Below are positions 3,101 to 52,804 of a DNA stretch of 64,000 bases, piece after piece. Positions within the stretch are counted from its first letter, which is position 1, and the number at the start of each line of letters is the position of its first letter. The position numbers were made by a program, and so were the translations under genes. Below the pieces are notes generated by a model. That model was not told the DNA's origin and did no database searches. It was given only the letters and a program-made list of their open reading frames with translations. The stretch is from Rhizobium sp. NXC24 (lineage in GTDB: Bacteria > Pseudomonadota > Alphaproteobacteria > Rhizobiales > Rhizobiaceae), in NCBI RefSeq assembly GCF_002944315.1, contig NZ_CP024314.1, forward strand, positions 1,736,001-1,800,000, in the 5' to 3' direction.

Positions 3101-6100
3101 GGCGCGGATGTTAGTTACGACCGGTGTCGTAGACGACGACGAGGAGCTGCTTTGCTGATGGCTGATGCCGGCGGAGAGCGAGACATCCAAGGCAAGACCA
3201 TCTTTACTGTTGAGCTGCTGATTAGCGCTCTTCAGGTCTTCATAGCCCTGATAGAAGCCCAGAGCGGCAATGGCCGTATTGGTGACGGCGTTGACGCCTC
3301 CACTGTCGCTGAGCCGCTCGGCCGAGTTATAGATGCTCTGAGCCGCCTTCCCCACCTTGCTCGAAACCGTCAGGGTCACACCAGCGAAGGTCTTCTCGTG
3401 AACCTCCTGATAATTTGTGACATCGTTGGCCGAGAGAAGGTTGATGTCGTTCTTGGCAAAGAGATTGACATCACGCTCGGCCGACGCGCTGGTCGCCTGA
3501 AAGTTGACATCACGACCCGCCGAAACATTGAGATCACGTCCGGCCGAGAGTGTTGACATGGCGTTGGTGTCGGACTGCTCCGCGCTGCTGTCCTTCGTCG
3601 ACTGCGCTCCGATACCAATGGAGAAGCCACCGCCGCCTGTGGAGAAGGCGAGACCAAACCCGGATTTCTTCTGCTGTTCGGACTGCGACGAACTCTCGGC
3701 GCCTGGGGTGACATTGACATCACGGGCTGCCGACAGGTTGATATCCTGATCGGCACTGACCGACGAACCCATGATGTTCACGTCGGTTGCTTTGGCCGTC
3801 AGATTGACGTCCTGACCGGCCGAAAGCGTGGACCCGACATTGTCCGTGGAGGATTGCTCGCCCTGCTTTTCGTTTTTGCCATAGAGCGAGATGAAGCCGC
3901 CGCCGGAGCCGACGAACAGGCCGGAATCTTTACGCTGGCTGTCGGACTGATGGTTCTCCTGTGCGCCGATGATGGAAACGCTCTCGCCGGAGACGTTGAG
4001 CGAACCGTCGGCATTGACCTTCGAGCCGACGATGGCGGCCGCCTTGCCGGCGTCCAGGTTGACATCGCCCGAGGCCGAGAGCTGCGATCCAACGGTCGTC
4101 TCATTGTAAGCGTCATAGCTTGAGCTGCCGCTGCGCAGGAAACCCTTGCGCTTTGATTTGTCGTTTTCGGTTTCGGTATCCTTGCCAGCGGTGACGATGA
4201 GATTGCCGACGGTCTGAATATTGAGATCCGATGTATGCGTGACGTCACCCGCCGTCACCTTGGAGGCCGAGACGGTCGTGTCGCCACCGGAGATAATGGT
4301 GACATTGCCCTTGCCAGAGACCGAGGATCCCACCTCCGTCGTGGTCTCAAGGTGGCCGGAGGCATTCTCCTTGGTCGAGCCGAGGAAACCACTCTTCTTG
4401 GTGGAGCTCTTGACATCGAGGGTAGCGCTATCGGTCGCCTCGGCGATGGTGACATTGTTTTTCGCCTGCAGGCCAAGGGTGCCGTCGGCCGCCATCGTCG
4501 AGCCGATGACGTTGATGTCGTTGTTGGACTTCGCGACGAGATCGCCACCAGCCGTGATGGTCGAGCCGTTATGGGTGAGCGAAGACGCTGAGTTTTTGCC
4601 GAAAGTCGAGCTTGATTGGTTCTGCGAGGTGGTGACGTTGATGTCGCCGTTGGAGGTCAGGCCGACATCGCCCTTGGCCGTCAGGTCAGAGCCGGAGATC
4701 AGGACGCCAGTATTGGCATTGATCTGCAGATTGCCGTCGGCCGAGAGTTGCGAAGCCTGCTGGTCGGTGCCTGCGGTCTTGGTGTAGCCGTCGTTCGTGC
4801 GACGGGCGACATCGGTCGAAACGACATTGACCGCGCCATTGTTGGCAGTCACCGAGAGATTGCCGCCTGATTTGGCGGAGGAGCCGATGACGTTGACATC
4901 GTTGTTGGCGGCAATAGCAAGGTTACCCCCGGCGGTGACGCGTGCGCCGGTCGCATTTTGCTGGCCGCCATTGTCGACCTTGACCGCGCCAAGGGTGACA
5001 TTGTTGCCGGAAAGCTGGGCCGAGCCGCCCGCCTTGACGCTGGCGCCCTGGAGATTGAGGTCGCTGTTGTCGGCGGCAAGCTGGACATTGCCACCGGCCG
5101 ACACGCCGGCATTCCGGTTGACGACATTCTGGCCGCCGATAGTCATCGTCTGGGCGGCGAGTGTGATGCCGTTCGAGGCGGTCAGATTCAGGTTGCCGCC
5201 AGCATAGAAGGTGCCGGTCGACTTGATCGTGCTGGCGGCGACATTAAGACCGCCGGCTGCTGCCACGGCGCCGGAATTGTTGACATCAGTGGCGTTGAGA
5301 TCGACCGTGTTGCCAGCGATCATCGCGCCGGCCGACGTGCCCGCCTTGGCGCGGTCGGCGGCCGACAGGTAGACGACCGGAGCCATTACCTGAACCCCGT
5401 TGACGGTCTGGGCCTGGTAGAGGACGATAGACTGCTTCAGATTGGCTGCCTGTTCGGGCGTCAGTCCCTCGCCGAAGGCAAGGCCGTTGGCTTCTGCGTA
5501 AGCAGCGCCATTGTCCAGCAACGACTTCATCTGCTCGATGGCGCTGTTGCCGGGAATGAAGGAGCCGTTTCCGAGCCCGTCGCCGACCAGTTGCCGCAGT
5601 TGGGTGTCGACCAACTGGTTGTCGAAATAGGCATCGCCGAGGAACGGAATGTTCGTCTCGGGATCATAACCGGCGCGGTTCAGGAAATAGGCCGAGCCGT
5701 AGAACTTCGAGACATCAAGAAAGGCCGCGCGGGTTTCGAAGATGAAGGCTTGGCCAGGAATGGTGCCGCCGACACCGCCCGACTGCGGCTTGGCGAGTGC
5801 CGCGAGTTGAGCCACGTTCGCGGCGGAGATCTGGGTGAGATTGCCAAGTGCGGCGGTCAAGCCGCCGCTTGTGGTCAGTGAACTATTGCCGGCGACGCTG
5901 GAGAGCACACTGTTGACCGTGAACAGGGCACCGCCAGCGGTCATGCCGCTGAGGGCCGACAGCGGATTGCTTGATGTCGATGCCGCACTGACGGCCGCGC
6001 CACCACTCGTCGAACCGAGGGAGGAGTTGTTGACCGTGCCAAAGTTGAGGGTCAATGCGCCGGCCGCCTTGAGGGTACCGGCCGCACCGCCGATGACCTG

Positions 6101-9100
6101 TGATCCCGACACGATCGACGTGCCATTGGCGATATTGTGCGACGGATCGGCTGTGCCATCAGCATTGTAGGCCGTGCAGGCACCCTGGGCATTACAGGTC
6201 AGCGTCGTGGTGCGGTTAAGGACGACACCCTGGTTGGTAAGCGTCGATCCGCTGAGCGTCGCATTGCCGCCCGCTTCGATCCGGCTATAGGAGTTGGTGA
6301 GATTGGTGGCATCGACGGTGAGATTGCCGCCGGCGCGGATTACCGCTTCCGGGCTCAACGCACTGGTGAACTGGTCCTCGTAGACCGATTGGCTGATATT
6401 GGCACTGCCGTCCCAGGTGTAGGTCGTGCTAGCGTCCGAACCGCCATTGATGACTTCGTCGACAATGAAGTATCGGGATGGATTGTTCGCATCGAGCACC
6501 GGATTGCCGTTGGCATCCTTCGGTACTCTCGCCAGGATCCAATCATAGATCGGCCCAACTTCCGTCGGCCCGTTGGCGCTGATCCAGGTCCAGGCATGAT
6601 AGCTCGTGCCGTCGGCGAGCGTCGCCTGCGACCAGAGTAGCGGCTGGTAATCGGAAAACAGTCCCGGATCGACCCCTGCGTAAAGCTGGAACATATTCTG
6701 GTCGGTCGATTCCAGATAGGCGAACGGCTGGCCCGCGACAGCTGGATTGAGCACGAAGGTGCCGACAACGGAACCGGACGAGATGAGTACGCCCGTCGTC
6801 CAGGTCGGCGTCGTCAGGCGCTCGTTGGTCAGATTGGATGTCAGGATCGACATGTCGCCGCCAGCCTGGATAAGGCCGGAGATATTTGTGGTCGCAGCGT
6901 TGCGCTGACTGAGCGAGCTGCCCGCGATCGTCAGGTCATTGCCGGCGAGAATGGCGCCCTGATTGTTGGTCAGCGTTCCCGCGACCAGCAGGGACGCGTC
7001 GTTCCCGGCATAGAGCAGACCAGTCGCCGTATTGGTGACATCGCCGCTGGTATTGATGGTCAGGTTGTTTGCGGCGGCAATCTGTCCGCTGTTGGAGAGC
7101 GTCGTCGCGACAATCGCAGGCGATTGCGCTGACAGGGTCAGCGTCAGGTCATGGGCGGCCAGCAGCGTCGTGGCACTGCTTGTGGTCATGCCGCCTGCGG
7201 TGATCACGATATCGCCGGAGCCACCGGCATTCGTGACCGTGTTCACCTCAGCGCCGGTCAGATCGGCCTGACCGGTGAGATCGAGCGTCAAGCCGCCAAG
7301 GACCAGGCTGCTTCCGGTCAGGTTCGCGGACGTCGCCGTGACGGCCAGGGTGCCGCCGACAGCGAGATTGGCGCCGCGCGTCCCGGAAAGATCGATCGTG
7401 CCGGTATCGATCGTCAAATTGCCGGTGACATTGCTGTTGTTGGTATAGCTGATGCTGCCCGGCGCGGTCAGCGAGGCGCTGGCAAGGCTCTGCAGCAACG
7501 CGTAGCTGATGCCGCCGCTTGCCGTAGCGGTGAGATCGCCACCGGACAGCAGCGCATTGCTGGCGGTGACATCGCCGTTCGTCGCGGTGAGCGTCATGGT
7601 GCCGGATTGGCTGCTGCCCTGCGCGAGCATCAGCGCCCCGCTCGTCGATGCACTGGTGGCGGTGAAATCGACACCAGACACCAGGCTTGCGGCTGAGATC
7701 GACTGGCCCTGCAGGGTGACATTGCCCGCCGCCATCGACTGGCCGGCAAGGGCAATCGTACCGCCAGCCGTCATCGTCAGCTTTTGGTGCGCAACCGCAT
7801 TCGTGGCGACGCTATTGCCGATGCTACCGCTGGCGGTCAGCGTGATACCTTCGGCCGACAGCAGGCTGGCGGCATTGATATTGCCGGCGGTGGCCTTGAG
7901 CGTCAGCGCGCCGGCCGAGCCAAGCACAACGCTACCGCTCGGATCGGCACTGGTGGCGGCGAAGTCGACGCCGGAGACAAGCGTGTCAGCGGTAATGCTC
8001 GCGCCGGTTATGTCGACATTGCCGGCGGCAAGGAGTGTACCGGTTATGGTCGCAGTGGCGTTGACCGTGACATCGCCGTGGCCTGTGATGTCCGAGGCTG
8101 TGAACGAACCACCTGTCACGTCGAGATCGCCAGCAACAAGTAGTGGTCCTGTGCTTGCACTCGTGGCGTTGATGACCAGGTCACCAGCCGAGCCGATGAC
8201 GATAGCGCCAGTCGAGGATTGCGCCATGGCGGCAAAATCAACACCAGTTACCACCTCACCGGTCGTGACCGTGCCGCCTGAAAGGGTAATGTCGTCGGCA
8301 CCAAGGATCTGACCGGTCGCGGTCAGGCTGGAATTGCCGGTCAGCGCGATATTCGTGTGGCCGGTGACGCTGCCAAGACTGAGATCTGCGGCGGTGGCGG
8401 TGATGGTGCCGGCTGCAATCAGGGCATTGGCCGTGAGACTTCCGGAGGCTTGCAACGTCAGATCACCAGCCGAGCCGAGCGTGATATTGCCACCACTGGC
8501 TTCGGTTGCCGCGAAGTCCAGACCGCCGACAATCTCATTGGCCGTAACCGTGCCGCCCGTAAGCGAGACGTTGCCCGCTCCCAGAACCTGGCCGGTTGCG
8601 GTCAGGCTATTGCTAGCGGCAAGGGTTACATCACCGTGGCCGGTTACATTGCCGACAGTGAGATCGGTGGATGTGGCGGAAGTCGTTCCGGCCGCAAGCA
8701 GCGTGTTGGCTGACAGATTGCCGGAGGCGGTCAGCGTCATGTCGCCGGCGCTGCCGAGGACGAGATTGCCGCCGTTCGCAGCGGTTTGCGCAAAGTCGAC
8801 CCCAGAGACAATGGCCCCGACCGAGATCGCAGAACCCGAGATCAGGATGTTACTCGCAGCAAGGACTTGGCCGCTCACATTTGTCGCGGCGTTGATAGTG
8901 ACCGTCCCATCCGAAGTGACAGCACTTGCCGTCAGCGACGCAGCGGTCACGGTAAGGTCGTTGGTCGACTGGAGGCTGCCAGCGCTCATGCTACCGCTGG
9001 CACTGGCATTCAAGACTCCAGCCGACAGGAGATTGCCCGTGGCAATATCGCCACCTGTCGCCGTCAGGCTGAGGTCGCCGGTCGAGCCGAGCACCACGTT

Positions 9101-10234
9101 ACCACTCGGATCGGCGCTGGTTGCGGCAACATCGATACCTGCGACGACCAAGCCCGTGGAAACCGCGCGGCCAATGGCGGTGACATTGCCTTGCGCCAGC
9201 ACGTTGCCGGCGACGGCAATGTCGAGACCGGCATTCAGCGCGATGTTTTGGTTGCTCAGCAGAGAGGCGGCCGAGATCGAGCCCGCCGTCGCCGTCAGAT
9301 TGAGGTCACCGGCACTGTTGGCAGCACCAGCAATCGTCACATCCCCGGAGGTAGCCGAAAGCGTAGCGGCACCACTGCCCGCCGTGACGCTGCCAGCGGC
9401 AATACCCCCGTCCGAAGTCATTTGCACGACGGTGCCGCTGTTGACATCGCCGGAAACGCTGAGCAGACCAGCACCACTGGACAGAACGATATCGCTGTCG
9501 GCTGCCACAGACTGCAGCGTGATGCCTTGGTCGGCCTGGATCGCAACCTTCTGCTGCGATGTCACCTTGGCCGCCGTCACCTTCTTCTTCGAGGTGATGC
9601 TGACGCCCTGGCTGCCCGACGCATTGCCGATCGAGATCTTGCCGTCGGCCGACAGCGACAGCTCGCCGGCATTGGCGGCCATGTCGCCGCTCATGTTGAC
9701 ACCGGCACCTTTTTCCGTGACGACAATCTTGATGCGGTCGGCCTGCATCGCGCCAAGCGCGGTGCCATCGATCGCGTATTCCGGTGTGCCGGAGGTGGCG
9801 GTCAGCGCGGTCGCCTCGCCGGTCGCATAGTTGTATTGGCTCGCACCGCCCGTCAGCCGGATGGTCTTGCCATAGATCGGCGCATTGACGTGGATGTTGC
9901 GCGCAACGACATCGAAAAGATCGACAGCACCGGGGCTGACTGCGAAGTTGCCCCCTACCCCTTCGAAGGTGACATCGCCGCCATTGACGGTGAAGCCGGT
10001 GAGACTTCCGTCGGTGCCGATATTCGGAACACCCGTGGTCAGCGTCGCATGAGGCGTATTGATAAAGCCACACCCGGAGCACGAGATCCCATTAGGGTTG
10101 GCGATGATGACATCGGCCTTGGTGCCGAAGACTTCGGTGGGGCCGTTGAGTGCCGAGCGATTGCCGCTGGTTACCTCATTCAAAATGACCGAGGCCGGCC
10201 CTGGGGGTGACACCGCCGAGATTCGACGTGCCAA
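119..10234 (-). CDS. FhaB/CdiA-type two-partner-secreted giant exoprotein with Hint and toxin tip; main body, frameshifted from its N-terminus
   Basis: This is the secreted partner of a two-partner (type Vb) system, 3371 residues in this frame. It opens with the second part of a TPS/haemagglutination domain, including an NPNGI-type motif near residue 45. Then come long beta-helix repeats: about residues 360-850 carry ~93-residue units with a recurring G-V-D-F-A-A-T motif, and later parts are FHA-type repeats rich in GGD-N-x-x. A pre-toxin region near residue 2830 has N-F-Q-Y-N-Y-L in place of the usual VENN-type motif. A Hint domain spans about 3028-3197 and a toxin tip 3198-3371. The signal peptide and the start of the TPS domain lie in another frame (10176-10553). 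Deleting one G from 10203-10207 joins the frames into a normal TPS sequence. Either the gene is broken or phase-variable, or the base is a sequencing error. Confidence 0.9.
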   Translation of the reverse strand: MARRISAVSPPGPASVILNEVTSGNRSALNGPTEVFGTKADVIIANPNGISCSGCGFINTPHATLTTGVPNIGTDGSLTGFTVNGGDVTFEGVGGNFAVSPGAVDLFDVVARNIHVNAPIYGKTIRLTGGASQYNYATGEATALTATSGTPEYAIDGTALGAMQADRIKIVVTEKGAGVNMSGDMAANAGELSLSADGKISIGNASGSQGVSITSKKKVTAAKVTSQQKVAIQADQGITLQSVAADSDIVLSSGAGLLSVSGDVNSGTVVQMTSDGGIAAGSVTAGSGAATLSATSGDVTIAGAANSAGDLNLTATAGSISAASLLSNQNIALNAGLDIAVAGNVLAQGNVTAIGRAVSTGLVVAGIDVAATSADPSGNVVLGSTGDLSLTATGGDIATGNLLSAGVLNASASGSMSAGSLQSTNDLTVTAASLTASAVTSDGTVTINAATNVSGQVLAASNILISGSAISVGAIVSGVDFAQTAANGGNLVLGSAGDMTLTASGNLSANTLLAAGTTSATSTDLTVGNVTGHGDVTLAASNSLTATGQVLGAGNVSLTGGTVTANEIVGGLDFAATEASGGNITLGSAGDLTLQASGSLTANALIAAGTITATAADLSLGSVTGHTNIALTGNSSLTATGQILGADDITLSGGTVTTGEVVTGVDFAAMAQSSTGAIVIGSAGDLVINATSASTGPLLVAGDLDVTGGSFTASDITGHGDVTVNATATITGTLLAAGNVDITGASITADTLVSGVDFAATSADPSGSVVLGSAGALTLKATAGNINAASLLSAEGITLTASGSIGNSVATNAVAHQKLTMTAGGTIALAGQSMAAGNVTLQGQSISAASLVSGVDFTATSASTSGALMLAQGSSQSGTMTLTATNGDVTASNALLSGGDLTATASGGISYALLQSLASASLTAPGSISYTNNSNVTGNLTIDTGTIDLSGTRGANLAVGGTLAVTATSANLTGSSLVLGGLTLDLTGQADLTGAEVNTVTNAGGSGDIVITAGGMTTSSATTLLAAHDLTLTLSAQSPAIVATTLSNSGQIAAANNLTINTSGDVTNTATGLLYAGNDASLLVAGTLTNNQGAILAGNDLTIAGSSLSQRNAATTNISGLIQAGGDMSILTSNLTNERLTTPTWTTGVLISSGSVVGTFVLNPAVAGQPFAYLESTDQNMFQLYAGVDPGLFSDYQPLLWSQATLADGTSYHAWTWISANGPTEVGPIYDWILARVPKDANGNPVLDANNPSRYFIVDEVINGGSDASTTYTWDGSANISQSVYEDQFTSALSPEAVIRAGGNLTVDATNLTNSYSRIEAGGNATLSGSTLTNQGVVLNRTTTLTCNAQGACTAYNADGTADPSHNIANGTSIVSGSQVIGGAAGTLKAAGALTLNFGTVNNSSLGSTSGGAAVSAASTSSNPLSALSGMTAGGALFTVNSVLSSVAGNSSLTTSGGLTAALGNLTQISAANVAQLAALAKPQSGGVGGTIPGQAFIFETRAAFLDVSKFYGSAYFLNRAGYDPETNIPFLGDAYFDNQLVDTQLRQLVGDGLGNGSFIPGNSAIEQMKSLLDNGAAYAEANGLAFGEGLTPEQAANLKQSIVLYQAQTVNGVQVMAPVVYLSAADRAKAGTSAGAMIAGNTVDLNATDVNNSGAVAAAGGLNVAASTIKSTGTFYAGGNLNLTASNGITLAAQTMTIGGQNVVNRNAGVSAGGNVQLAADNSDLNLQGASVKAGGSAQLSGNNVTLGAVKVDNGGQQNATGARVTAGGNLAIAANNDVNVIGSSAKSGGNLSVTANNGAVNVVSTDVARRTNDGYTKTAGTDQQASQLSADGNLQINANTGVLISGSDLTAKGDVGLTSNGDINVTTSQNQSSSTFGKNSASSLTHNGSTITAGGDLVAKSNNDINVIGSTMAADGTLGLQAKNNVTIAEATDSATLDVKSSTKKSGFLGSTKENASGHLETTTEVGSSVSGKGNVTIISGGDTTVSASKVTAGDVTHTSDLNIQTVGNLIVTAGKDTETENDKSKRKGFLRSGSSSYDAYNETTVGSQLSASGDVNLDAGKAAAIVGSKVNADGSLNVSGESVSIIGAQENHQSDSQRKDSGLFVGSGGGFISLYGKNEKQGEQSSTDNVGSTLSAGQDVNLTAKATDVNIMGSSVSADQDINLSAARDVNVTPGAESSSQSEQQKKSGFGLAFSTGGGGFSIGIGAQSTKDSSAEQSDTNAMSTLSAGRDLNVSAGRDVNFQATSASAERDVNLFAKNDINLLSANDVTNYQEVHEKTFAGVTLTVSSKVGKAAQSIYNSAERLSDSGGVNAVTNTAIAALGFYQGYEDLKSANQQLNSKDGLALDVSLSAGISHQQSSSSSSSTTPVVTNIRAGRSITMAAQDGSITSDGAQISAGYGKDGLPTVSSDPLTGDIFLSAQNGDINLNAATGTSDSSSSNSSWSAGIGVGFSCGTKSGCDKTGVYASASYGEGGSGTTTVTHTNTHVDGTGDVTILTNDLLLKGATVAGNSVTADVKNLTIESQVDTGKASANQLNLSGSIGTGSFSVSGVTQNASGDAAMVSEQSGIHAGAGGLDINVAGQTSLIGGLITSGAAADQNHFATGTLTVADIDTHSTWKAETYGGSIGTSGLSIAPPVKDGENKTGQALSAIGGNIGITITDPTHQVLDIATIRRDTENTNTSLPSLPDLQNILRNQYKTQADLQEAQKTMAGLVGTIADQLEAQALAARHPEDAAYWEEGGAGRALLHAIGGGLLGGVNGWEGALKGALGGAASTLLAPAIADLVKGMLKDSTLSAADKQTLATLLGASLSAAAGGIVGGGEGAAYGAANFQYNYLAQNKARSRVVAKAKLAECQDSGTCSDAQITKYQSMVDQYDQEDRQTDQQLKTACDAAPKGPACVSAIKDALIAAEYYVSSDYLSTLMDLPDNGYREIEDEILSGHFEGTANQALKQAVYDERQSIIALLQQYRPSVAETWKQIGYDSIAQLVIAGASLGLEVYAGGGTNAGKAIEGEGACAGGTCSTGCSFDASTLVKTVDGFTAISRIRPGKTLVWSQDEQGHAAYKLTLARITEKHTETLRLTVRSDATGARQTITTTTNHPFFAVLSEGRTVPVSLPEGHLYQGAIKNGAWVAAHDLRPGEKLFNADGGWSSVVNVRVEDKSFDAYNLTIADFHTYFVKQAGNDQAEPVWVHNECLGPSKPSGAYSLADEVIDTVSGLALKDGIQEINTYYVNGEQRFAVQGADGQWYRVAQATDGNWSVYQPPASTIPSSTDFYSSLQNLAPNERVAKINTITRQVADANGWTKSTTISAANNRTVYQAQDGTLYAVDTAHGSFEVLNSRGVHQGEIRIDGSELDTADLSGGHDLIIP
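122..643 (-). other. C-terminal toxin domain, colicin E3-like RNase candidate
   Basis: This covers residues 3198-3371 of the exoprotein, after the Hint domain. Near the end it reads D3331-T-A-H3334-G-S-F-E3338, followed by an R-G-V-H-Q-G-E segment. Colicin E3-type 16S rRNA nucleases carry a D-x-x-H-x-x-x-E catalytic triad with the same spacing, followed by a G-x-H-L-G-x-F segment. The spacing match is seen directly; the RNase activity is inferred. I could not place the additional catalytic arginine known in colicin E3. The neighbouring upstream part of the domain is unrecognised. Confidence 0.5.
644..1153 (-). other. Hint (intein-like, pretoxin) domain of the exoprotein
   Basis: Residues 3028-3197 start with C-S-F-D-A-S-T-L-V-K-T-V-D-G-F-T. 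They contain the T-x-N-H-P-F-F block (T-T-N-H-P-F-F) and end in H-T-Y-F-V ... V-W-V-H-N-E-C. These are the N-terminal Cys, block B histidine and C-terminal V-H-N features of Hint domains found in polymorphic toxins. Such domains are thought to release the toxin tip by self-cleavage at the V-H-N end. Position between the beta-helix and the toxin domain fits this. Confidence 0.85.
7640..9160 (-). repeat. About 93-residue tandem repeats in the exoprotein stalk
   Basis: Within exoprotein residues of about 360-865, a motif of the form G-V-D-F-A-A-T followed by G-N-V-V-L-G-S-A-G-D-L-T-L recurs six times. In the clearest copies the spacing is 93 residues (279 bp). The copies are diverged in sequence, which points to old duplications rather than recent array growth. 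They are likely extra turns of the beta-helix stalk. Confidence 0.7.
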
Positions 10235-10553
10235 CCTCGCCGTTGAAGTTATTGAGGATCAGGCCCTGTGTGCCGACATTCAGGTCATTGTATTTATTGT
10301 GAGATAGCCCCGTGCTGTTCGGCGTGACGATATCAATCAGCGGCACGCCGTTTGACGCGGTACCGACACCTGGCTGATTGGCCGTTGGCGCCGTCGTACT
10401 TGCGGAGACGGACTGGGCATTGGCCAGCATGGGCTGGAAGATAAGCAGGCTGCTCAGCAAGATCGCAACTGTTTTGCGGGCAAATCTGCCCGAGCGATCG
10501 GCACTTACCTCGTCATTTCCGCCGCTTGAAATAGATGCTGACGTCCTGGTCAT
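10176..10553 (-). pseudogene. N-terminal fragment of the exoprotein: signal peptide and start of TPS domain
   Basis: This frame encodes about 125 residues starting MTRTSASISS, with AGGACAGGG just before the ATG at 10553. An in-frame TTG at 10601, directly after the upstream gene, is an alternative start. It contains a long basic n-region, a hydrophobic stretch ending L-A-N-A-Q (signal peptidase site) and the classic TPS opening G-V-P-L-I-D-I-V-T-P-N-S-x-G-L-S-H-N-K-Y. It then leaves frame after N-L-G-G-V-T-P and stops at 10176. The continuation P-G-P-A-S-V-I-L-N-E-V-T-S-G lies in the neighbouring frame (119-10234). Without a frame correction, the exported part would end inside the TPS domain. 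Confidence 0.85.
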
Positions 10554-10601
10554 CGCCCTGTCCTGTTGAACGTTTCCTGCTCGCTTCGGATTTTTTGCCA
10601 A

Positions 10602-11210
10602 CTACTTTCGTGGCGTCAGCCACGCCTTCACCTGCTTCATAAATGTTTCGGCCAGTTGGGTTGCCACTGCGGTTTGATTGGGTGTGACAGCCGCATTGAT
10701 GACCATCGCAGGGAGGAGAGCTAACCCATTGCCGCGGACTGTCATGTCGCCGGCGCGTATCTCTTGGGCCTGCGCGATCAAGTTGCCGGTGCGCATGTCC
10801 TCAAGGCGGACGGTTCCATCGATAAAGCTGTTGTTACCTGCGATAATTCTGCCGGGAGCCGACGCCACATCCAGATCATGAAGGGTAACAATCAACCTCG
10901 CGGGAATTTTACCCCCTGGATAGCCCTTCAGATCCTGCGCAAGTCTTTGCTGCAGGACGCGCGACACAAGCGCGACCTGGGATTCCCGCGTGTCACCGTT
11001 CATCAGAGGTGCTCCCATCCTCAGATCGGGCGCCACTTCTATACGGACATCAGCGATACTGGCGGTGCCAAGCGCTGCGGTGAGGCGTGGATCTTGCGTG
11101 GTGCATCCGGTCCCGACAGCGGAACCCATAAGAGCCGCGACAAACAGGGCTCTGACCGTTCCGCGCTGCAGCCTTTTATTGTTGTCTTTCACCTTGATTA
11201 CCTTTCTCAT
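10602..11210 (-). CDS. Lipoprotein-like protein of the two-partner secretion operon
   Basis: The protein has 202 residues. A basic N-terminus is followed by a hydrophobic stretch ending G-T-G-C36-T-T, which resembles a lipobox although position -3 is glycine rather than leucine. The remainder has no family I recognise; it contains T-L-H-D-L-D-V-A and ends in a basic helix. Its ATG follows the FhaC-type gene's stop codon directly, and its own stop touches the exoprotein's reading frame, so the three genes are translated as one unit. A role in export, assembly or periplasmic escort of the exoprotein is inferred from position only. Confidence 0.75.
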   Translation of the reverse strand: MRKVIKVKDNNKRLQRGTVRALFVAALMGSAVGTGCTTQDPRLTAALGTASIADVRIEVAPDLRMGAPLMNGDTRESQVALVSRVLQQRLAQDLKGYPGGKIPARLIVTLHDLDVASAPGRIIAGNNSFIDGTVRLEDMRTGNLIAQAQEIRAGDMTVRGNGLALLPAMVINAAVTPNQTAVATQLAETFMKQVKAWLTPRK

Positions 11211-12959
11211 TCACCACTTCACCGATGTACTGACGAACAAAAGCCCGGTGTCGCGCCGGCTGACCGTGCCGCCGAGGACATCCGAATAACCCATGTCGAA
11301 ATTGACGTAGCCGCCGGCGAGCTTGGCTCCCACCGTCCAGCCGAACATGTCGCCGCCCTCGATGCGAGAGCGGGCCTGCGAGGCGATGCGCCCGTAATCG
11401 AGCCCGAGATAGGGCCGGAACTCTCCAAGGATCTTGGCAAGTTCGCCATTGCCGGCAAAAGGCTGCGTCCGCCAGACCAGGTCGTTGCGGACAAAGAAGC
11501 CGTTGTTGCCGAACAGCATGGTCTCTCTCGTGCCGCGCACGGTGGAATAGCCGCCGACCGAGATCTGCTCCGCGCCGAACAGGTTGTCGGGGGAATATTG
11601 GCCGGTTACGAGCGAATCGATCTCGAAGTGCTGACCAGCCACTTCGATGGGCTTCGTCGCGGTAATCGTACCGGTGAACTTCGAGAAGCGCGGATCGGCA
11701 TCGCCGGCTCCGACATCACCGGGGTCGACGGCGTCGAAGAGGTTCAGTCCCTGGCTGTAGGAAAGGTCGAAGACCCAGAGCCCGCCGAGCATGCGGCGCG
11801 AATGCGAGATGCCGAGATCGCCGACGGTATATTTGCGGCTGCCAACCTCGATCTTGCTGCCGAGCAGGAAATTGTTGGTTTCCTTGTAGGTCAGGCCGCT
11901 GTTGAAGGTCGTGATCGAATCCTTGTCGCGGAGGATGACGCGGTCGGCACCAATGCCGAGCTGCTTGGAATCGCCCGATGTCTGCAGGGTGCCGAAATTC
12001 CCAGGCACGGAGCTATTGTATTCATACCAGGAGCCGTTGACCGAAAACGTCCAGTACCCGTAAGGCACACTGGTATTGCCGGAATAGCTGTTGCTCCTCC
12101 CCTGGCCGTCGTCCCGCCACGGGTAGTCCGGCCCGGTTCGCTCATAGGCCAAGTTCCATTGATCGTTGATGCCGAAGAGGTTGTCATAGCCGACCGAGGC
12201 CGAGCTCTTGGAATATCCCGTCTGTTCCTCGCCGAGATTGCTGTTGCCGACCGAGAGGTGCCAGGGATGGCTTGGCTTGTTCTCGATATTGAGGATCGAC
12301 GTGCCGTCGGTTTTGCCAGGCAGCATCGCCGTCTTGGCGTTGTTGGAGGTCAGGCGGTTGATCTGGTCGAGACCCTGCTCGATGCCGCGCAGATTGACGA
12401 TATGGTCCTTTAGGCCGGCAAAGGCGGTGGCAAGCATGCCGGAACCCGGAGCCGGCTTGCCGTTGATGTAGATGTCGGCAAGCGTGCCCTCGACGGCGAC
12501 CAGGCGCAGCGCCTTGGTCTTGGCGATGTCCTGCGCCGGCACGTAGACGCGCGAGCTCACGAAACCCTTGTCGAGATAAAGCTGCGTCAGGTCCCGCAGC
12601 AGCGCATTGATCTCGCCGACACCGATACAGCGGTTCGCATACGGTGCCGTGATCTTGCCGATGACACTGGCCGGGAACTTGGTGACACCTTCAACATCGA
12701 TACGATTGATCTCGAAACAGGGACCAGCCTTTTTGCCGCCCGCTGCGGGCGGCGTTTGAGCCTCGGCCGGAGCTGGTTTCGGGGTCATCTCACCGAGGGC
12801 CTTGAGGCGCTGCTGTTCCGCCTCTTGCGCCTGCCGGCGTGCGAAATCTGCATTGGGTGTCTGGGCGGCCGCTATGGAGGCAGTAAAAGTCACCGCCAGC
12901 AGAGCACTGGCGGCCAAACCGATGCGATCTAGGGCGGAAGCTGCTCGCCGGATTGACAT
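11211..12959 (-). CDS. FhaC/CdiB-type TPS outer-membrane transporter (ShlB/FhaC/HecB family)
   Basis: The product has 582 residues: a signal peptide (residues 1-32, ending A-A-A-Q), a linker rich in Pro and Ala, a POTRA region around residues 80-160 (C-F-E-I-N-R-I-D-V-E-G), and then a 16-strand-type beta-barrel. The barrel carries the conserved V-R-G-T-R-E motif (V-R-G-Y-R-E in other members) that reaches into the pore, F-R-P-Y-L-G-L-D-Y-G, and a C-terminal aromatic residue (S-V-K-W). It recognises the TPS domain of the exoprotein in the periplasm and passes it through the outer membrane. Length and architecture are normal for the family, so the transporter looks intact even though its substrate gene is frameshifted. 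Confidence 0.93.
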   Translation of the reverse strand: MSIRRAASALDRIGLAASALLAVTFTASIAAAQTPNADFARRQAQEAEQQRLKALGEMTPKPAPAEAQTPPAAGGKKAGPCFEINRIDVEGVTKFPASVIGKITAPYANRCIGVGEINALLRDLTQLYLDKGFVSSRVYVPAQDIAKTKALRLVAVEGTLADIYINGKPAPGSGMLATAFAGLKDHIVNLRGIEQGLDQINRLTSNNAKTAMLPGKTDGTSILNIENKPSHPWHLSVGNSNLGEEQTGYSKSSASVGYDNLFGINDQWNLAYERTGPDYPWRDDGQGRSNSYSGNTSVPYGYWTFSVNGSWYEYNSSVPGNFGTLQTSGDSKQLGIGADRVILRDKDSITTFNSGLTYKETNNFLLGSKIEVGSRKYTVGDLGISHSRRMLGGLWVFDLSYSQGLNLFDAVDPGDVGAGDADPRFSKFTGTITATKPIEVAGQHFEIDSLVTGQYSPDNLFGAEQISVGGYSTVRGTRETMLFGNNGFFVRNDLVWRTQPFAGNGELAKILGEFRPYLGLDYGRIASQARSRIEGGDMFGWTVGAKLAGGYVNFDMGYSDVLGGTVSRRDTGLLFVSTSVKW

Positions 12960-12980
12960 AATAAGCGTGTCCGACCGGCC

Positions 12981-13652
12981 TTAGTTGGAAGCGGCCTTCT
13001 GCAGCGCATCCAGCGCCGCCGGCAATCCCTTCAGCGAGAACTTGATGTTGACCTTCTGGCCATTCATCATCTGTACGTGGCCGGTGCCATCGGAAGCCTT
13101 GGTCAGCGCCGCAACCATCTTGCCGTCCAGCTTCTGCTGCGACCAGCAGCCGGCCTGATTGCAGTTGCGGTAGGCGAGCTGCACCACAGGCTTGTCGGCG
13201 GCATAGATGCCAAGACCCGCTGGAATGTACATGTTGAGCGGCACGAGCGCCGTCAGAACCAATTCGCTTGCCGGCTGCTTTGCTGCCTTCTTGTTCGGTG
13301 TTGCCGGCTCGTCCGTTACCTTCGCGATCGCAAGCGTCAGGATATTGACGTCCTGGTCACCCTGCTTGACCGTGGCGATCTGCGCGACTTCGCAATGCGT
13401 GGCCGCCGAACCATCGGCCGCCTTGCCATCGATACAGCGATAGTACCAGTCGTCGAACTTCTGAACGCGCGCCTGCGGAACCGGCGGCTGCGAGTTATTT
13501 GCAGCTTCGGCGGGCTTCTGCTGGGCGTCCGTATTCGCGGGCGCAGCCGGCTGTTCTTGAGCAAGGCCGGACGATGAACAGAACGCCGAAACGAGGAGCG
13601 TCGATGCGAGGGTTTTGACGGAAAATGCCTTAGCCACAGCCGAAAACGTCAT
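12981..13652 (-). CDS. Invasion-associated locus B (IalB) family protein
   Basis: This 223-residue exported protein has a signal peptide ending near residue 31 (S-S-G-L-A-Q), a low-complexity Pro/Ala/Gln linker, and then the IalB domain from about residue 63. The domain shows F-D-D-W-Y-Y-R-C, C-E-V-A-Q, and the paired cysteines of Y-R-N-C-N-Q-A-G-C-W. IalB is known from Bartonella as an invasion factor; in free-living rhizobia its function is not established. Its stop lies 21 bases before the transporter gene, so it is probably the first gene of the two-partner secretion operon. That linkage is unusual. Confidence 0.88.
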   Translation of the reverse strand: MTFSAVAKAFSVKTLASTLLVSAFCSSSGLAQEQPAAPANTDAQQKPAEAANNSQPPVPQARVQKFDDWYYRCIDGKAADGSAATHCEVAQIATVKQGDQDVNILTLAIAKVTDEPATPNKKAAKQPASELVLTALVPLNMYIPAGLGIYAADKPVVQLAYRNCNQAGCWSQQKLDGKMVAALTKASDGTGHVQMMNGQKVNIKFSLKGLPAALDALQKAASN

Positions 13653-25685: not shown

Positions 25686-28304
25686 TCAGCTATAAGCAGC
25701 ATAGGCCGCAATGATCGCCGCAATTTGCTCGGAATCCAAAGCCTGTGCCTGGGTTGTCGTGATAGCGTATAGCTGTTCGCTGGAGAGCACGGAAATATCA
25801 GAGGTTGATAGTCCTTTTATGCCTCGGGTGCTGATGGCTTCGATTTGCTCGGTCGACAGCGCCTCGATATCCTTCGACGTCAGAGCGCCAATCTCCGCGG
25901 AGGTCAGGGCGGCGATCTGCGTGCTCGACAATGCACCGATCTGCGCCGTCGATAGCACCGCGACCTGACTGGTGGTCAGAGCCGCGATCGAGGCTGACGC
26001 CAGCGCGGCAATCTGCGTTGTGGAGAGTGCAGCCACGGCGACGGTGCTCAGAGCCGCAACCTGCTTCAGACTCAAGGCGCCCATCTGCGTCGAACTCAAG
26101 ACGTCGATCTGCTTGGTCGTGAGTGCAGCGATCTGGCTGGATGTCAGTGCCGCGATCTGCGCCGTCTTCAAGGCGGCGATCGTGCTGGTGGTGAGCAACG
26201 CGACATTATCGGTGGAGAGCTTCGAAAGAGCGACCGAGCTGAGGGCTCCAATTTGGCTGCTCGACAGCGCCGCTATATCCTCCGTCGAAAGGGCACCAAC
26301 CTCAGCGGCAGAGAGAGCGGCAATCTGCGTCGTCGTCAACGCACCGATCTGTGTCGTCGATAGCGCGGCAATCTCATCGGTAGTCAGCCCCGCGATCGAG
26401 GCGGACTTCAGCGCGGCAATTTGCGTGGTCGAGAGCGCGGCCACAGCGGCGGTGCTCAGAGCCGCAACCTGCTTCAGGCTCAAGGCGCTGATCTGTGTCG
26501 AACTCAAAACCTCGACCTGACCGGTCGTAAGCGCCGCGATCTGGCTGGATGTCAGCGCAGCGATCTGGGCCGTCTTCAAACCAGCGATCGTGCTGGTGGT
26601 GAGCAATGCGACATTACTGGTAGAGAGTTTCGACAGAGCGACCGAGCTGAGGGCTCCGATTTGGCTGCTCGACAGCGCTGCAATATCCGCCGACGAAAGA
26701 GCACTGGCCTCTGTGGCAGAGAGAGCCGCGATCTGCGTCGTCGTCAACGCACCGATCTGTGTTGTCGACAGCGCCGCGATCTGACTGGTGGTCAGGGCCG
26801 CGATGGAGGCTGACTTCAGTGAAGCGATTTGCGTGGTCGACAGTGCAGCCACGGCGACGGTGCTCAGAGACGCGACCTGCCTCAGGCTCAAGGCGCCCAT
26901 CTGTGTCGAACTCAAAACGTCGATCTGACTGGTTGTGAGCGCAGCGATCTGGCTGGACGTCAACGCCGCGATCTGTGCCGTCTTCAAGGCGGCGATCGCG
27001 CTGGTGGTGAGCAACGCGACATTACTCGTCGTGAGCTTCGACAGCGCGGATGAGCTGATTGCCCCGATCTGGCTGCTCGACAGCGCCGCAATATCCGCCG
27101 AGGAAAGGGCGCCGACCTCTGTCGCAGAGAGAGCTGCGATCTGCGTGGTGGAGAGTGCAGCGATCTGCGTTGTCGACAGCGCCGCGATCTCACTCGTGGT
27201 CAGACCCACGATCGCAGCAGTCTTCAGCGCGGCAATTTGCGTGGTAGAGAGTGCAGCAACGGCGGCGGTGCTCAGAGATGCAACCTGCTTCAGGCTCAAG
27301 GCGCCGATCTGCGTCGAACTCAAGACGTCGACCTGATTGGTCGTAAGCGCAGCGATTTGGCTGGACGTCAGGGCCGCGATCTGCGCCGTCTTCAACGCGG
27401 CGATCGTGCTGGTGGTGAGCAATGCGACATTATCGGTGGAAAGCTTCGAGAGGGCGACGGAGCTGATGGCGCCGATCTGGCTGCTCGACAGTGTCGCGAT
27501 ATCCTCGGTCGAAAGGGCACTGACCTCTGTGGCAGAGAGAGCCGCGATCTGCGTCGTCGTCAATGCAGCGATCTGCGTCGTCGACAGCGCCGCAATCTCA
27601 CTGGTAGTCAGACCCGCAATCGAGGCAGACTTCAGTGAAGCGATTTGTTCGGTCGAGAGTGCGGCCACAGCCTCGGTGCTTAGAGCCGCAACCTGCTTCA
27701 GACTCAAGGCGCCGATCTGTGTAGAACTCAAAACGTCGATCTGCTTGGTCGTGAGCGCAGCGATCTGGCTGGATGTCAGTGCCGCGATCTGCGCCGTCTT
27801 CAAGGCGGCGATCGTGCCGGTGCTGAGCAACGCGACATTATCGGTGGAGAGCTTTGACAGAGAGGACGAGCTGATGGCCCCGATTTGGCTGCTCGACAGC
27901 GCCGCAATATCCTCCGTCGAAAGGGCGCCGACCTCTGTCGCAGAGAGAGCGGCGATCTGCGTCGTCGTCAATGAACTGATCTGCGTCGTCGACAGCCCTG
28001 CGACCTGAGCGGTGGTCAGCGCCCTCACTTCGACCGTGGAGAGGCCTCCAATTTGGACCGATGAAAGAACCGCCAGTTGATCCAGCCCCAAACCCACAAT
28101 GGCGCTCGGCGATATGGCCTTCATTTGTTTCGTCGAGAGAACAGCAATATCTTCCGTACTCAACACAGCGATCTGGGTTGATGTAAGCGCGTTGATTTGG
28201 CTAGTACCCATCGCCGCGACGTCGTCTGTGGTCAGAGCAGCGATCGTGGCGGTGGAGAGAGACCGGATTGCACTGGCGGACAGAGAAGAAATGATTGAAG
28301 TCAT
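25686..28304 (-). CDS. Octapeptide-repeat protein of unknown function
   Basis: The gene encodes 872 residues starting M-T-S-I-I-S-S-L-S-A, with GGAA upstream of the ATG. An in-frame TTG at 28319 is a weaker start. Nearly the whole protein consists of 8-residue units of the form (A)-L-S/T-T-x-Q/E-I-x-A, more than 100 in total. Seventeen units make a 136-residue super-repeat that occurs five times. It has almost no aromatic residues or cysteines and no signal peptide or membrane segment. It ends I-I-A-A-Y-A-A-Y-S. Regular L and I spacing every four residues suggests a solenoid. Similar repeats occur in large alphaproteobacterial surface proteins, so secretion without a classical signal is possible, but I cannot assign a function. 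Confidence 0.85.
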   Translation of the reverse strand: MTSIISSLSASAIRSLSTATIAALTTDDVAAMGTSQINALTSTQIAVLSTEDIAVLSTKQMKAISPSAIVGLGLDQLAVLSSVQIGGLSTVEVRALTTAQVAGLSTTQISSLTTTQIAALSATEVGALSTEDIAALSSSQIGAISSSSLSKLSTDNVALLSTGTIAALKTAQIAALTSSQIAALTTKQIDVLSSTQIGALSLKQVAALSTEAVAALSTEQIASLKSASIAGLTTSEIAALSTTQIAALTTTQIAALSATEVSALSTEDIATLSSSQIGAISSVALSKLSTDNVALLTTSTIAALKTAQIAALTSSQIAALTTNQVDVLSSTQIGALSLKQVASLSTAAVAALSTTQIAALKTAAIVGLTTSEIAALSTTQIAALSTTQIAALSATEVGALSSADIAALSSSQIGAISSSALSKLTTSNVALLTTSAIAALKTAQIAALTSSQIAALTTSQIDVLSSTQMGALSLRQVASLSTVAVAALSTTQIASLKSASIAALTTSQIAALSTTQIGALTTTQIAALSATEASALSSADIAALSSSQIGALSSVALSKLSTSNVALLTTSTIAGLKTAQIAALTSSQIAALTTGQVEVLSSTQISALSLKQVAALSTAAVAALSTTQIAALKSASIAGLTTDEIAALSTTQIGALTTTQIAALSAAEVGALSTEDIAALSSSQIGALSSVALSKLSTDNVALLTTSTIAALKTAQIAALTSSQIAALTTKQIDVLSSTQMGALSLKQVAALSTVAVAALSTTQIAALASASIAALTTSQVAVLSTAQIGALSSTQIAALTSAEIGALTSKDIEALSTEQIEAISTRGIKGLSTSDISVLSSEQLYAITTTQAQALDSEQIAAIIAAYAAYS
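25900..27947 (-). repeat. Five tandem 408-bp super-repeats (17 octapeptides each)
   Basis: A marker sequence (the codons for L-S-A-T-E-V-G-A) recurs with start points at 26307, 26715, 27123, 27531 and 27939, exactly 408 bp apart. Each period is 17 units of 24 bp. Copies differ by scattered substitutions but no indels, so the array is in strict phase. This is coding repetition, not CRISPR. Confidence 0.9.
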
Positions 28305-28439
28305 AAACGAGCGTTCCAAATGTTAGCTTGATCACGCCTTGCTTGTCCGCCCCATCAAGCCGCCACAGCGGCTTTCGGATAGTAGGCTGCGACGCTGGCA
28401 GAGGCGCAGGAATAAACGCGACTGCGAACTAGCTGACTG

Positions 28440-50272: not shown

Positions 50273-50311
50273 CCCTTCACATTCAAATTCCGGAGCGTGA
50301 AAGGACCTCCT

Positions 50312-52804
50312 ATGAATAGTTCAGTCCGGCCAACGGATTTATCGACGGTCATATCTCTGCCGATCGACGGCATGACGTGCGCATCCTGTGTGGGCAGCGT
50401 TGAACGCGCCCTGAAGGAGGTGCCTGGCGTCGATTCCGTATCGGTCAATCTCGCCACCGAAAAGGCGAGCATAACGGCGCACGCAGCCATCGACCGAGCA
50501 AAACTCGTCCAGGCTGTCGAAAACGTCGGCTATTCCGTGCTGGGGAATTTCGCGCCTGCGGCCAGTTCCGTCGAGCTTTCGATCGAAGGCATGACCTGCG
50601 CATCCTGCGTGGGCAGCGTCGAACGCGCCTTGAAGGCCGTTCCGGGCGTCAGCGAGGCCGCCGTCAACCTTGCGACCGGGCGCGCGACGGTCAAAGGATC
50701 GGCGGATGCGGCAACCCTGATTGCGGCAGTCGAAAACGCCGGCTACGAGGCGAAGCTTATCGGCGCCGACCGAGAGGACGAAAACACCGAGCGCGCCGGG
50801 AAGAAGGACGCCGAACGGCGCGAACTCAGCCGCGACTTTACCATCGCCGCCGTGCTCACCGCGCCGGTCTTTCTCATGGAGATGGGATCGCACTTCATCC
50901 CGCGCGTTCACAGCCTCATCGAATCGACGATCGGCATGCAGTGGAGTTGGTACCTCCAGTTCGCGTTGACGACGCTCGTCCTCTTTCTCCCCGGCATCCG
51001 CTTCTATCATAAGGGACTTCCGGCACTTGGGCGACTTGCCCCAGATATGAACTCATTGGTCGCCATCGGCTCGTTCGCGGCCTATGGCTATTCGCTTGTC
51101 GCAACCTTCGCGCCCGGTTTCCTGCCCCCTGGTACGATCAACGTCTATTTCGAAGCCGCCGGCGTCATCGTGACGCTTATCCTGCTCGGCCGCCTGCTGG
51201 AGGCCCGCGCCAAGGGACGCACGTCTGAGGCGATCAAGCGCCTGGTCGACCTTCAGGTCAGAAGCGCTCGCGTTCGGCGGGACGGCAAGGCCGTCGATCT
51301 GCCGATCGGCTCGGTTGTTGCCGGTGATATCGTCGAAGTCAGGCCCGGCGAACGTGTTCCCGTCGATGGAGAAGTGATTGAAGGAACCAGCTATGTCGAC
51401 GAGTCGATGATTACGGGCGAACCGATCCCGGCATCGAAAACCGCAGGCAGCGCGGTTGTCGGCGGCACGGTGAACCAGAAAGGTGCATTTGCCTTCCGTG
51501 CGACGGCCGTGGGTGGCGACACCGTGCTGTCGCAGATCATTCGCATGGTCGAAGAAGCGCAAGCCTCCAAGCTGCCCATCCAGGCTCAGGTCGATAAGGT
51601 AACCATGTGGTTCGTGCCGGCCGTCATGGCTGTGGCCGCAATTACCTTCGCGGCATGGCTCTACTTCGGCCCCTCGCCCGCCCTTACCTTTGCGCTCGTC
51701 AACGCCGTCGCGGTTCTGATTATCGCGTGCCCCTGCGCCATGGGTCTGGCAACGCCCACTTCGATCATGGTGGGCACGGGACGGGGCGCAGAGCTCGGCG
51801 TATTGTTCCGCAAGGGCGAGGCGTTGCAATTGCTCAAGGACGCCAAGGTCGTCGCCGTCGACAAGACCGGTACACTGACCGAGGGCAAGCCAACGCTGAC
51901 GAACCTGGAACTGGCCACCGGGTTCGACAGGCCGACCATCCTCAGCCTCATTGCCGCCGTCGAGGCCAAATCCGAGCACCCGATCGCCCGCGCGATCGTC
52001 GACGCCGCCACCGGGGAAGGTCTCTCGCTATCGTCCGTGTCGGATTTTGAATCGGTTACCGGCTTCGGCGTGCAGGCGAAAGTCGACGGCAAGCTGGTTC
52101 AAATCGGCGCCGACCGGTACATGGCCGAACTTGGCCATGACGTCGCCGGCTTGGCCTCGGTCGCCGAACGCCTCGGCAACGAGGGCAAGTCACCCCTCTA
52201 TGCCGCGATCGACGGCAAGCTCGCGGCGATCGTCGCCGTGGCGGACCGGATCAAGGACACGACGCCCGCGGCGATCAAGGCCCTGCACGATCTCGGCCTC
52301 AAGGTCGCGATGATTACCGGCGACAATGCCCGCACAGCGAATGCCGTTGCGGCGCGGCTGGGCATCGACGCGATCGTCGCCGAAGTCCTGCCGGATGGTA
52401 AGGTCGACGCGATCAGCGGCCTCAAGAGCCAGTACGGCAAGGTCGCCTTCGTCGGTGACGGCATCAACGACGCCCCGGCGCTTGCCGAAGCGGATGTGGG
52501 TCTCGCCATCGGCACGGGCACGGATATCGCCATCGAGGCGGCGGATGTGGTCCTGATGTCGGGCAGCCTGCAGGGCGTACCAAACGCCATTGCGCTCTCC
52601 AAGGCGACGATCGGCAACATCCGCCAGAATTTGTTCTGGGCCTTTGCCTACAATACGGCCCTGATCCCGGTCGCCGCGGGTGCTCTCTACCCGGCCTTCG
52701 GCATCCTGCTCTCGCCGGTCTTCGCGGCGGGTGCCATGGCCCTTTCGAGCGTCTTCGTGCTCGGTAATGCGTTGAGGCTCCGCCGATTCAAGGTCGCCAA
52801 TTGA
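50312..52804 (+). CDS. copA: Copper-exporting P1B-type ATPase
   Basis: The 830-residue start M-N-S-S-V-R-P-T has AAAGGA six bases upstream; a GTG five codons earlier is less likely. Two metal-binding domains carry C23-A-S-C26 and C96-A-S-C99. Transmembrane helices contain the C473-P-C475 transport site, the phosphorylation loop has D517-K-T-G-T, and G-D-G-I-N-D-A-P is the hinge. It pumps Cu(I) out of the cytoplasm. The CueR gene follows 57 bases later. Confidence 0.95.

Follow-up and report, generated by a model that had tools for sequence, protein, structure and literature searches.

An ALTTAQ octapeptide-repeat protein of Rhizobium sp. NXC24, predicted to form a screw of short helices, and its family's association with GT41 glycosyltransferases

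The DNA analysed here is a 64,000-nucleotide stretch of Rhizobium sp. NXC24 (contig NZ_CP024314.1, positions 1,736,001 to 1,800,000; hereafter the window), which carries on its reverse strand, at 25686-28304, a gene for an 872-residue protein built almost entirely of octapeptides. The protein belongs to the Pfam family PF20080 (ALTTAQ_rpt) and is confidently predicted to form an ordered chain of short helices. In its relatives the adjoining gene often encodes a TPR protein with a glycosyltransferase domain of family GT41, resembling O-GlcNAc transferase (OGT), and the Ser/Thr content of one octad position follows the adjacency of that enzyme. The reading that we prefer, at a probability of roughly 0.55, is that the window protein is a PF20080 screw rod and that the family comprises O-glycosylation substrates of a dedicated GT41, which would make of it a rigid, glycan-studded rod, probably exported.

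The octad array, its family and its predicted fold

The open reading frame (ORF) runs from an ATG at 28304 to a TGA at 25688-25686. This start is favoured over a TTG at 28319 because several relatives begin with MTSIISSL or a similar sequence. The product contains 108 full octads in a single register with the consensus L-S/T-T/S-x-Q-I-A-A. Position 1 is Leu in 100 octads, Ile in seven and Met in one; Ser or Thr is found in 94 of the 108 at position 2 and in 94 at position 3, Gln in 59 at position 5, and Ile or Val in 95 at position 6. There is no Cys, aromatic residues and His together number three, and Ser plus Thr make up 31% of the protein. Tandem Repeats Finder places a 408-bp period at 25830-28019 (5.4 copies, 83% matches, 0% indels), corresponding to a super-repeat of 17 octads, and the five regular super-repeats span residues 144-823, much as the initial annotation had described them: more than 100 octapeptides in five indel-free units of 408 bp. 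Compared with itself, the protein has an identity of 0.75 when shifted by 17 octads and of 0.73 when shifted by 34; the mean for octad lags is 0.44 and that for other lags 0.09. Corrected for column composition, the self-identity is 0.57, 0.55 and 0.49 at lags of 17, 34 and 51 octads, and 0.07 at the next best lag.

All parts of the array lie on the reverse strand. Seven residues precede the first of 17 diverged octads (residues 8-143; 27876-28283), which are followed by super-repeats 1 (residues 144-279; 27468-27875), 2 (280-415; 27060-27467), 3 (416-551; 26652-27059), 4 (552-687; 26244-26651) and 5 (688-823; 25836-26243), the last being the most diverged of the five. The five super-repeats rest on Tandem Repeats Finder and the octad register, and super-repeats 1 and 2 are also covered by a structural model. 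The remaining stretch (residues 824-872; 25689-25835) holds the last six octads, which are diverged like the first 17, and a C-terminal tail of the type ..QIAAIIAAYAAYS that resembles those of many Rhizobiaceae relatives.

The protein had been thought to belong to no known repeat family; it proves to be a strong member of PF20080, matched over its whole length in 34 stretches (598.3 bits against a curated cut-off of 26.4, E = 1.1e-184), with tandem octads in continuous register. Nothing sets it apart from other ALTTAQ_rpt proteins. The family seems to have no described function, and the Pfam entry that we saw gives only a name, to which a turn number and a GT41 partner are added here. Its members are found in the Alpha-, Beta- and Gammaproteobacteria and in other groups too. 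A protein search returned at least 599 relatives at E ≤ 0.001 among 7993 scored candidates; among the 120 relatives listed nearly all carry PF20080, and some add RTX, peptidase or other domains. The genome of NXC24 has three ALTTAQ genes, namely the window gene, L015 (1880 residues, C1:3145-3151k) and L016 (2422 residues, C4:1567-1574k), where L, C and, below, G mark our numbered loci, contigs and genomes. Two relatives used for comparison are proteins of Rhizobium sp. CB3090 (L022, 82% identical) and R. jaguaris (L010, 76% identical), and Rhizobium sp. CB3060 has a relative at 99%.

Pfam matches of the protein to Gp5_trimer_C, LRR_EndoS and Sigma70_r4_2 exceed their cut-offs and look compositional, as do NCBIfam sigma-factor matches, which score below their own cut-offs, and weak matches of leucine-rich repeat type; both AlphaFold2 models described below contain helices only and no strands. 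RTX nonapeptides (PF00353) are absent from the protein in a Pfam scan up to E = 10. ALTTAQ arrays thus attract misleading labels, among them sigma-70 region 4, EndoS leucine-rich repeat and Gp5 trimer, and source names given to relatives include Rof and heme utilization protein. Very large ALTTAQ ORFs, each encoding some 5,350 residues, were seen in a member of the Nitrosomonadales (L108, 359-16411) and in Duganella (L114, 5279-21307), each followed by a GT41 gene.

AlphaFold2, given two super-repeats and 50 alignment rows, returned a model with a mean predicted local distance difference test score (pLDDT) of 96.8 and a predicted template modelling score (pTM) of 0.86, in which 34 short helices of 4-6 residues each correspond to the 34 octads. 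This ordered chain agrees with the earlier suggestion of a solenoid with specialised units and leads us to reject a disordered low-complexity chain. Modelled in full from its single sequence, the protein scored poorly (pLDDT 60.5), and a fold search with that model turned up chiefly long solenoids, whose template modelling scores were about 0.1. For the two-super-repeat model, seven of the first eight Foldseek matches had probabilities of 0.98-1.00, including the mesothelin/stereocilin/otoancorin superhelix (8cx3, 8cyh, 7ued, 8fsl), which is likewise a solenoid of short helices; one source describes a right-handed solenoid with 24 short helices in nine layers (PMC10035497). The sequence also matches HeliScrew4 (PDB 9zem; E = 1.6e-17, or 3.8e-31 with a profile) over 106-108 residues without a gap. 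This protein, which in our opinion looks engineered, has the octad in common by sequence but is short (120 residues) and carries Pro-Glu at positions 3-4 where the window protein has Ser/Thr; it was not among the 50 Foldseek matches listed for the model. Taking the model as a guide, each octad, L-S/T-S/T-x-Q-I/V-x-A/G, would form one short helix over positions 3-7 with the Ser/Thr of position 2 as its cap, and the helices would follow each other in a single uninterrupted screw, each turn of which takes about 3.4 octads (27 residues).

A GT41 partner and octad position 3

When the window protein was used to scan named genomes, 44 ALTTAQ loci emerged, and in 23 of them a GT41 gene lies within the locus. 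Their hosts range from Rhizobium, Sinorhizobium and Agrobacterium to Hyphomonadaceae, Rhodospirillales, Duganella, Pararobbsia, Nitrosomonadales and Rhodocyclaceae. For 19 of the other 21 loci a GT41 is encoded elsewhere in the genome, beside another ALTTAQ gene in 12 of the 20 places fetched, so that a dedicated GT41 stands near ALTTAQ in 35 of the 44 loci or their genomes (23 + 12). Loci found by any route to hold both genes number 50, a set that includes close relatives, and so non-independent cases, and several loci picked because ALTTAQ was present; in 46 of them the two genes are no more than 1 kb apart, and they lie on the same strand in 26, divergently in 22 and convergently in two. 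Across 101 Rhizobiaceae genomes, GT41 occurs in 24, ALTTAQ in 15 and both in nine. The surroundings of GT41 genes in these other genomes contain an ALTTAQ ORF at eight loci (L040, L062, L063, L066, L067, L068, L070 and L072), to which L015 of NXC24 adds a ninth; these nine are all the GT41 of the 101 genomes whose Pfam match ends at 536-538, and no ALTTAQ ORF was found at loci with only other GT41 types.

A FastTree phylogeny of 104 GT41 sequences gathers 38 ALTTAQ-linked enzymes in one clade (support 1.0) and places the Duganella-type ALTTAQ-linked enzymes in a second clade of five (1.0), with nine label changes overall. NXC24 itself has two GT41 genes, both on contig C1, the window being on C4. 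One is beside the paralogue L015; its product aligns with human OGT (E = 4e-75) and with XcOGT, and this alignment, as displayed, contains the His and Lys that matter in OGT. The other, L027 (G000:C1:660500-679500), belongs to a flagellin/FlgE cluster. The same setting is seen for further GT41 that are not part of the ALTTAQ clade, and such flagellin-cluster enzymes of Rhizobiaceae (L027 and L150, for example) fall outside the large ALTTAQ-linked clade.

The company kept by the two kinds of GT41 differs. The gene glf, for UDP-galactopyranose mutase, is present in 27 of the 50 ALTTAQ-GT41 loci and in none of 47 GT41 loci without ALTTAQ, and a PF12248 (Methyltransf_FA) protein in 18 of the 50 and again in none of the 47; flagellin genes are found in three and nine, respectively. 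The presence of glf hints that the sugar might be galactofuranose in Rhizobiaceae. In many Rhizobiaceae ALTTAQ loci (L013, L018, L066 and others) glf and the PF12248 protein, of about 420 residues, adjoin the GT41 gene. A curlin gene (L018, 3170-3583) was also seen near glf, GT41 and ALTTAQ on a plasmid of Rhizobium sp. CCGE532.

We compared Ser/Thr frequency by octad position between ALTTAQ ORFs with a GT41 in the locus (n = 28) and those without (n = 20). At position 3 the medians were 0.81 and 0.60 (p = 3e-4). GT41 made no difference at position 2 (0.75 and 0.76, p = 0.89) or, overall, at position 4 (0.27 and 0.25, p = 0.80), the latter being Ser/Thr-rich in L113, L118, L121 and L125. Paralogues were then paired within the 18 genomes for which both GT41-adjacent and non-adjacent copies were available, five of which are close relatives (G107-G110 and G113): position-3 Ser/Thr was higher in the adjacent paralogue in 17 of the 18 (sign test 1.4e-4, Wilcoxon 4e-4), position-2 Ser/Thr in only six. 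Within NXC24 the position-3 frequency is 0.87 for the window protein, 0.93 for L015 and 0.78 for L016, and three measured arrays from GT41-free genomes stand at 0.31, 0.53 and 0.41 (L076, L078, which is the same as L098, and L099). Arrays low in Ser/Thr often have Pro or Ala at position 3. One Rhizobiaceae group (L103-L106 and L111) encodes such an array of about 1,415 residues with Pro/Ala at this position, the second, GT41-adjacent paralogue there being Ser/Thr-rich.

A proposed glycan-bearing rod and the readings that compete with it

On the reading that we prefer, the screw of capped mini-helices would be made in the cytoplasm, where a dedicated OGT-like GT41, commonly encoded by the next gene, would bind the rod through its TPR part and probably glycosylate the Ser/Thr of position 3, the first residue of the helix (N1), or in some lineages that of position 4. 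The sugar-bearing rigid rod would then probably be exported and act at the cell surface or outside. The window protein would have to be modified in trans, by the enzyme encoded at G000:C1:3152k.

Several observations weigh against this. Neither the window gene nor its paralogue L016 has a GT41 gene nearby, and at least four of the 15 ALTTAQ genomes have none at all (G020, G031, G035 and G062). A type I secretion ATP-binding cassette (ABC) gene is near only three of the 50 ALTTAQ-GT41 loci. The paired count at position 3 drops to 16 of 18 when the comparison is with the highest non-adjacent paralogue, related genomes are not independent of one another, and G094, whose non-adjacent piece has only 20 octads, runs counter to the trend in both tests. 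A prior prediction that arrays poor in Ser/Thr at position 3 would lie in GT41-free genomes held in two of nine cases and failed in seven, as several such genomes carry a GT41 beside a second ALTTAQ gene; its eight successes in eight for rich arrays are uninformative, 19 of the 21 genomes having GT41, and the paired analysis came afterwards.

The strongest competitor, which we nonetheless consider doubtful, is an unglycosylated solenoid serving as scaffold or adhesin, in which one subclade simply favours Ser/Thr at position 3 for solubility or packing and the neighbouring GT41 has another target, surface polysaccharide or flagellin. In its favour are the lone position of the window gene, the ALTTAQ genomes without GT41, the paralogues with Pro/Ala at position 3, and the frequent presence of glf, an enzyme of surface-sugar supply. 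Against it stand the ALTTAQ-linked GT41, which form clades of their own and come from Alpha- and Betaproteobacteria and one Pseudomonas plasmid, the mere three flagellin-bearing loci in 50, and the fact that adjacency is tracked by position 3 only and not by position 2.

Export is the weakest step of the glycosylated-rod proposal, and it is here that an intracellular filament or scaffold, never exported and regulated by GT41 in the manner of eukaryotic OGT, must be considered. The seven residues ahead of the first octad would be too few to accommodate an N-terminal signal peptide of the ordinary kind; GT41 enzymes are cytoplasmic, as is known of OGT and of FlmG (PMC7591256); and secretion genes are, as noted, seldom adjacent. 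A full TolC-HlyD-ABC set does adjoin the Pseudomonas ALTTAQ member, however, relatives bear RTX-type PF00353 or peptidase domains (among the matches listed), and the C-terminal tail is common to many rhizobial members. We think it unlikely that the protein stays within the cell.

A probable turn number and the 17-octad block

For each array with a long run we took as best lag the octad lag, between 5 and 60, with the greatest self-similarity after composition correction, and called it in phase if it deviated from a multiple of 3.385 by no more than 0.1 turn (base rate 0.20). Best lags were in phase in all 32 of a mostly rhizobial set (single longest run each, window protein included) and in 32 of 44 database relatives, with the value 3.385 initially fitted on sets that included the rhizobial and database proteins tested. 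Of the 48 ORFs of the named loci, which were retrieved afterwards, 45 were in phase, including 21 of the 24 outside Rhizobium-type genera; three further ORFs were excluded, their runs being too short. The period fitted to the best lags was 3.40 in three sets. Their mean residuals were 0.013, 0.034 and 0.108 turn, and the lowest values in the random controls (500 lag sets each) were 0.149, 0.125 and 0.152; a second minimum near 2.43 was worse in every set. A cosine fit of the mean profile of the database set (0.547, with a period P of 3.38) exceeded the maximum of 200 shuffles (0.497). Two results tell against a fixed turn: the out-of-phase best lags of the other 12 of the 44 database relatives, and the cosine fit of the rhizobial set, which at 0.544 did not exceed its shuffle maximum of 0.566 (200 shuffles).

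In most relatives the strongest internal period is one of 7, 10, 17, 24, 27, 34, 44 or 54 octads; as far as sequence periodicity can indicate, these lengths look like near-whole turns of the screw. We infer about 3.4 octads per turn, a value that lags do not distinguish from its aliases (1-f). Seventeen octads would then be five whole turns, and the 17-unit positional order recognised in the initial annotation fits a whole number of turns. Because it would equal five whole turns, a 17-octad block could be duplicated while each of its 17 positions kept its place around the circumference.

The 10 pairs that can be formed from the five super-repeats show a DNA identity of 0.82-0.86, a synonymous divergence (dS) of 0.40-0.62, a nonsynonymous divergence (dN) of 0.07-0.14 and a dN/dS of 0.11-0.34; protein change is therefore constrained, as would be expected if the identity of the units is under selection, an idea already put forward for this array. 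Repeats 1-4 of the window protein are about as distant from one another as from the repeats of L022, with no matching by number, and in the comparison with L022 and L010 only repeat 5 best matches its L022 counterpart, so that copies turn over within the array. The view that the regularity itself reflects selection thus stands for the position-specific, constrained units, and part of the regularity stems instead from duplication and concerted evolution.

A 17-octad block is probably shared by descent in several Rhizobiaceae, since the super-repeats of L013, L017 and L091 match those of the window protein at one phase (z 4.3-5.2). Together with the partial concerted evolution and the dominance of period 17 in 32 of the 48 named-locus ORFs, this would suit a 17-octad order that is merely the trace of an old block copied repeatedly, with no constraint from a turn number; we hold this to be improbable, given that other dominant periods (7, 10, 24, 27, 44 and 54) fit the same turn number, that the 17-octad order occurs without a distinctive common phase in the Verrucomicrobia-type L110 (z 1.6) and in Duganella L114 (z 1.1), and that the strong duplications in the database set are of 7, 7, 7, 10, 10, 10, 14, 17, 17, 17, 17 and 27 octads. 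It is in our judgement an even bet that ALTTAQ and GT41 together form a bacterial system of O-glycosylation not described before. Its substrate would be a resonant screw in which each octad presents at least one Ser/Thr, where a mini-helix begins, to an adjacent OGT-like enzyme, so that one rigid rod bears hundreds of evenly spaced glycans, and the block lengths of 7, 10, 17, 27 and 44 octads would have been selected as near-whole turns.

Our literature search, which took in few subscription papers and had bioRxiv outside its coverage, found no study of ALTTAQ, PF20080 or HeliScrew, nothing on an octapeptide solenoid with type I secretion, and no report of an OGT and a repeat protein encoded by adjacent genes, where only an unrelated paper turned up. 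Within the literature searched, the ALTTAQ-GT41 pairing and the turn rule seem new. One close known arrangement is HMW1A-HMW1C of H. influenzae, in which a large, secreted repeat adhesin is reported to be served by a cytoplasmic GT41-like transferase with its own gene; HMW1C is N-linking and HMW1A is exported by two-partner secretion, whereas the ALTTAQ side has an OGT-type enzyme and a helical octad rod. Compared with that pair, the window gene has a GT41 in its genome and no adjacent one, and adjacency is found for the paralogue L015 and most relatives. FlmG, a soluble O-glycosyltransferase of Caulobacter flagellin, is described as having a substrate-binding N-terminal part and a C-terminal transferase and as acting before export (PMC7591256). 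The ALTTAQ-linked GT41 resemble it in this modular build; their proposed substrate is a helical octad rod and not flagellin.

Elsewhere in the window, the reverse-strand region 119-13652 looks like a contact-dependent inhibition-type locus. It contains a two-partner-secretion (TPS) exoprotein of 3371 residues (119-10234) with TPS domain, haemagglutinin repeats and a C-terminal pretoxin HINT domain, a 202-residue ORF, a ShlB/FhaC-type transporter (11211-12959) and an IalB-like protein (12981-13652). A P-type ATPase of 835 residues with two heavy-metal-associated domains is encoded at 50297-52804. The other strand of the window has one promoter-like site, about the number found in shuffles, and the window contains no tRNA gene and no Rfam match.

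If the glycosylated-rod reading is true, an uncharacterised Pfam family would acquire a function that can be tested, together with a partner enzyme and a site at which modification is expected. The natural pairing of one enzyme with one rod would offer a compact system for how OGT-type enzymes read regular substrates. It would also point to a physical rule, by which the turn number of a fold decides which higher-order repeat lengths survive.

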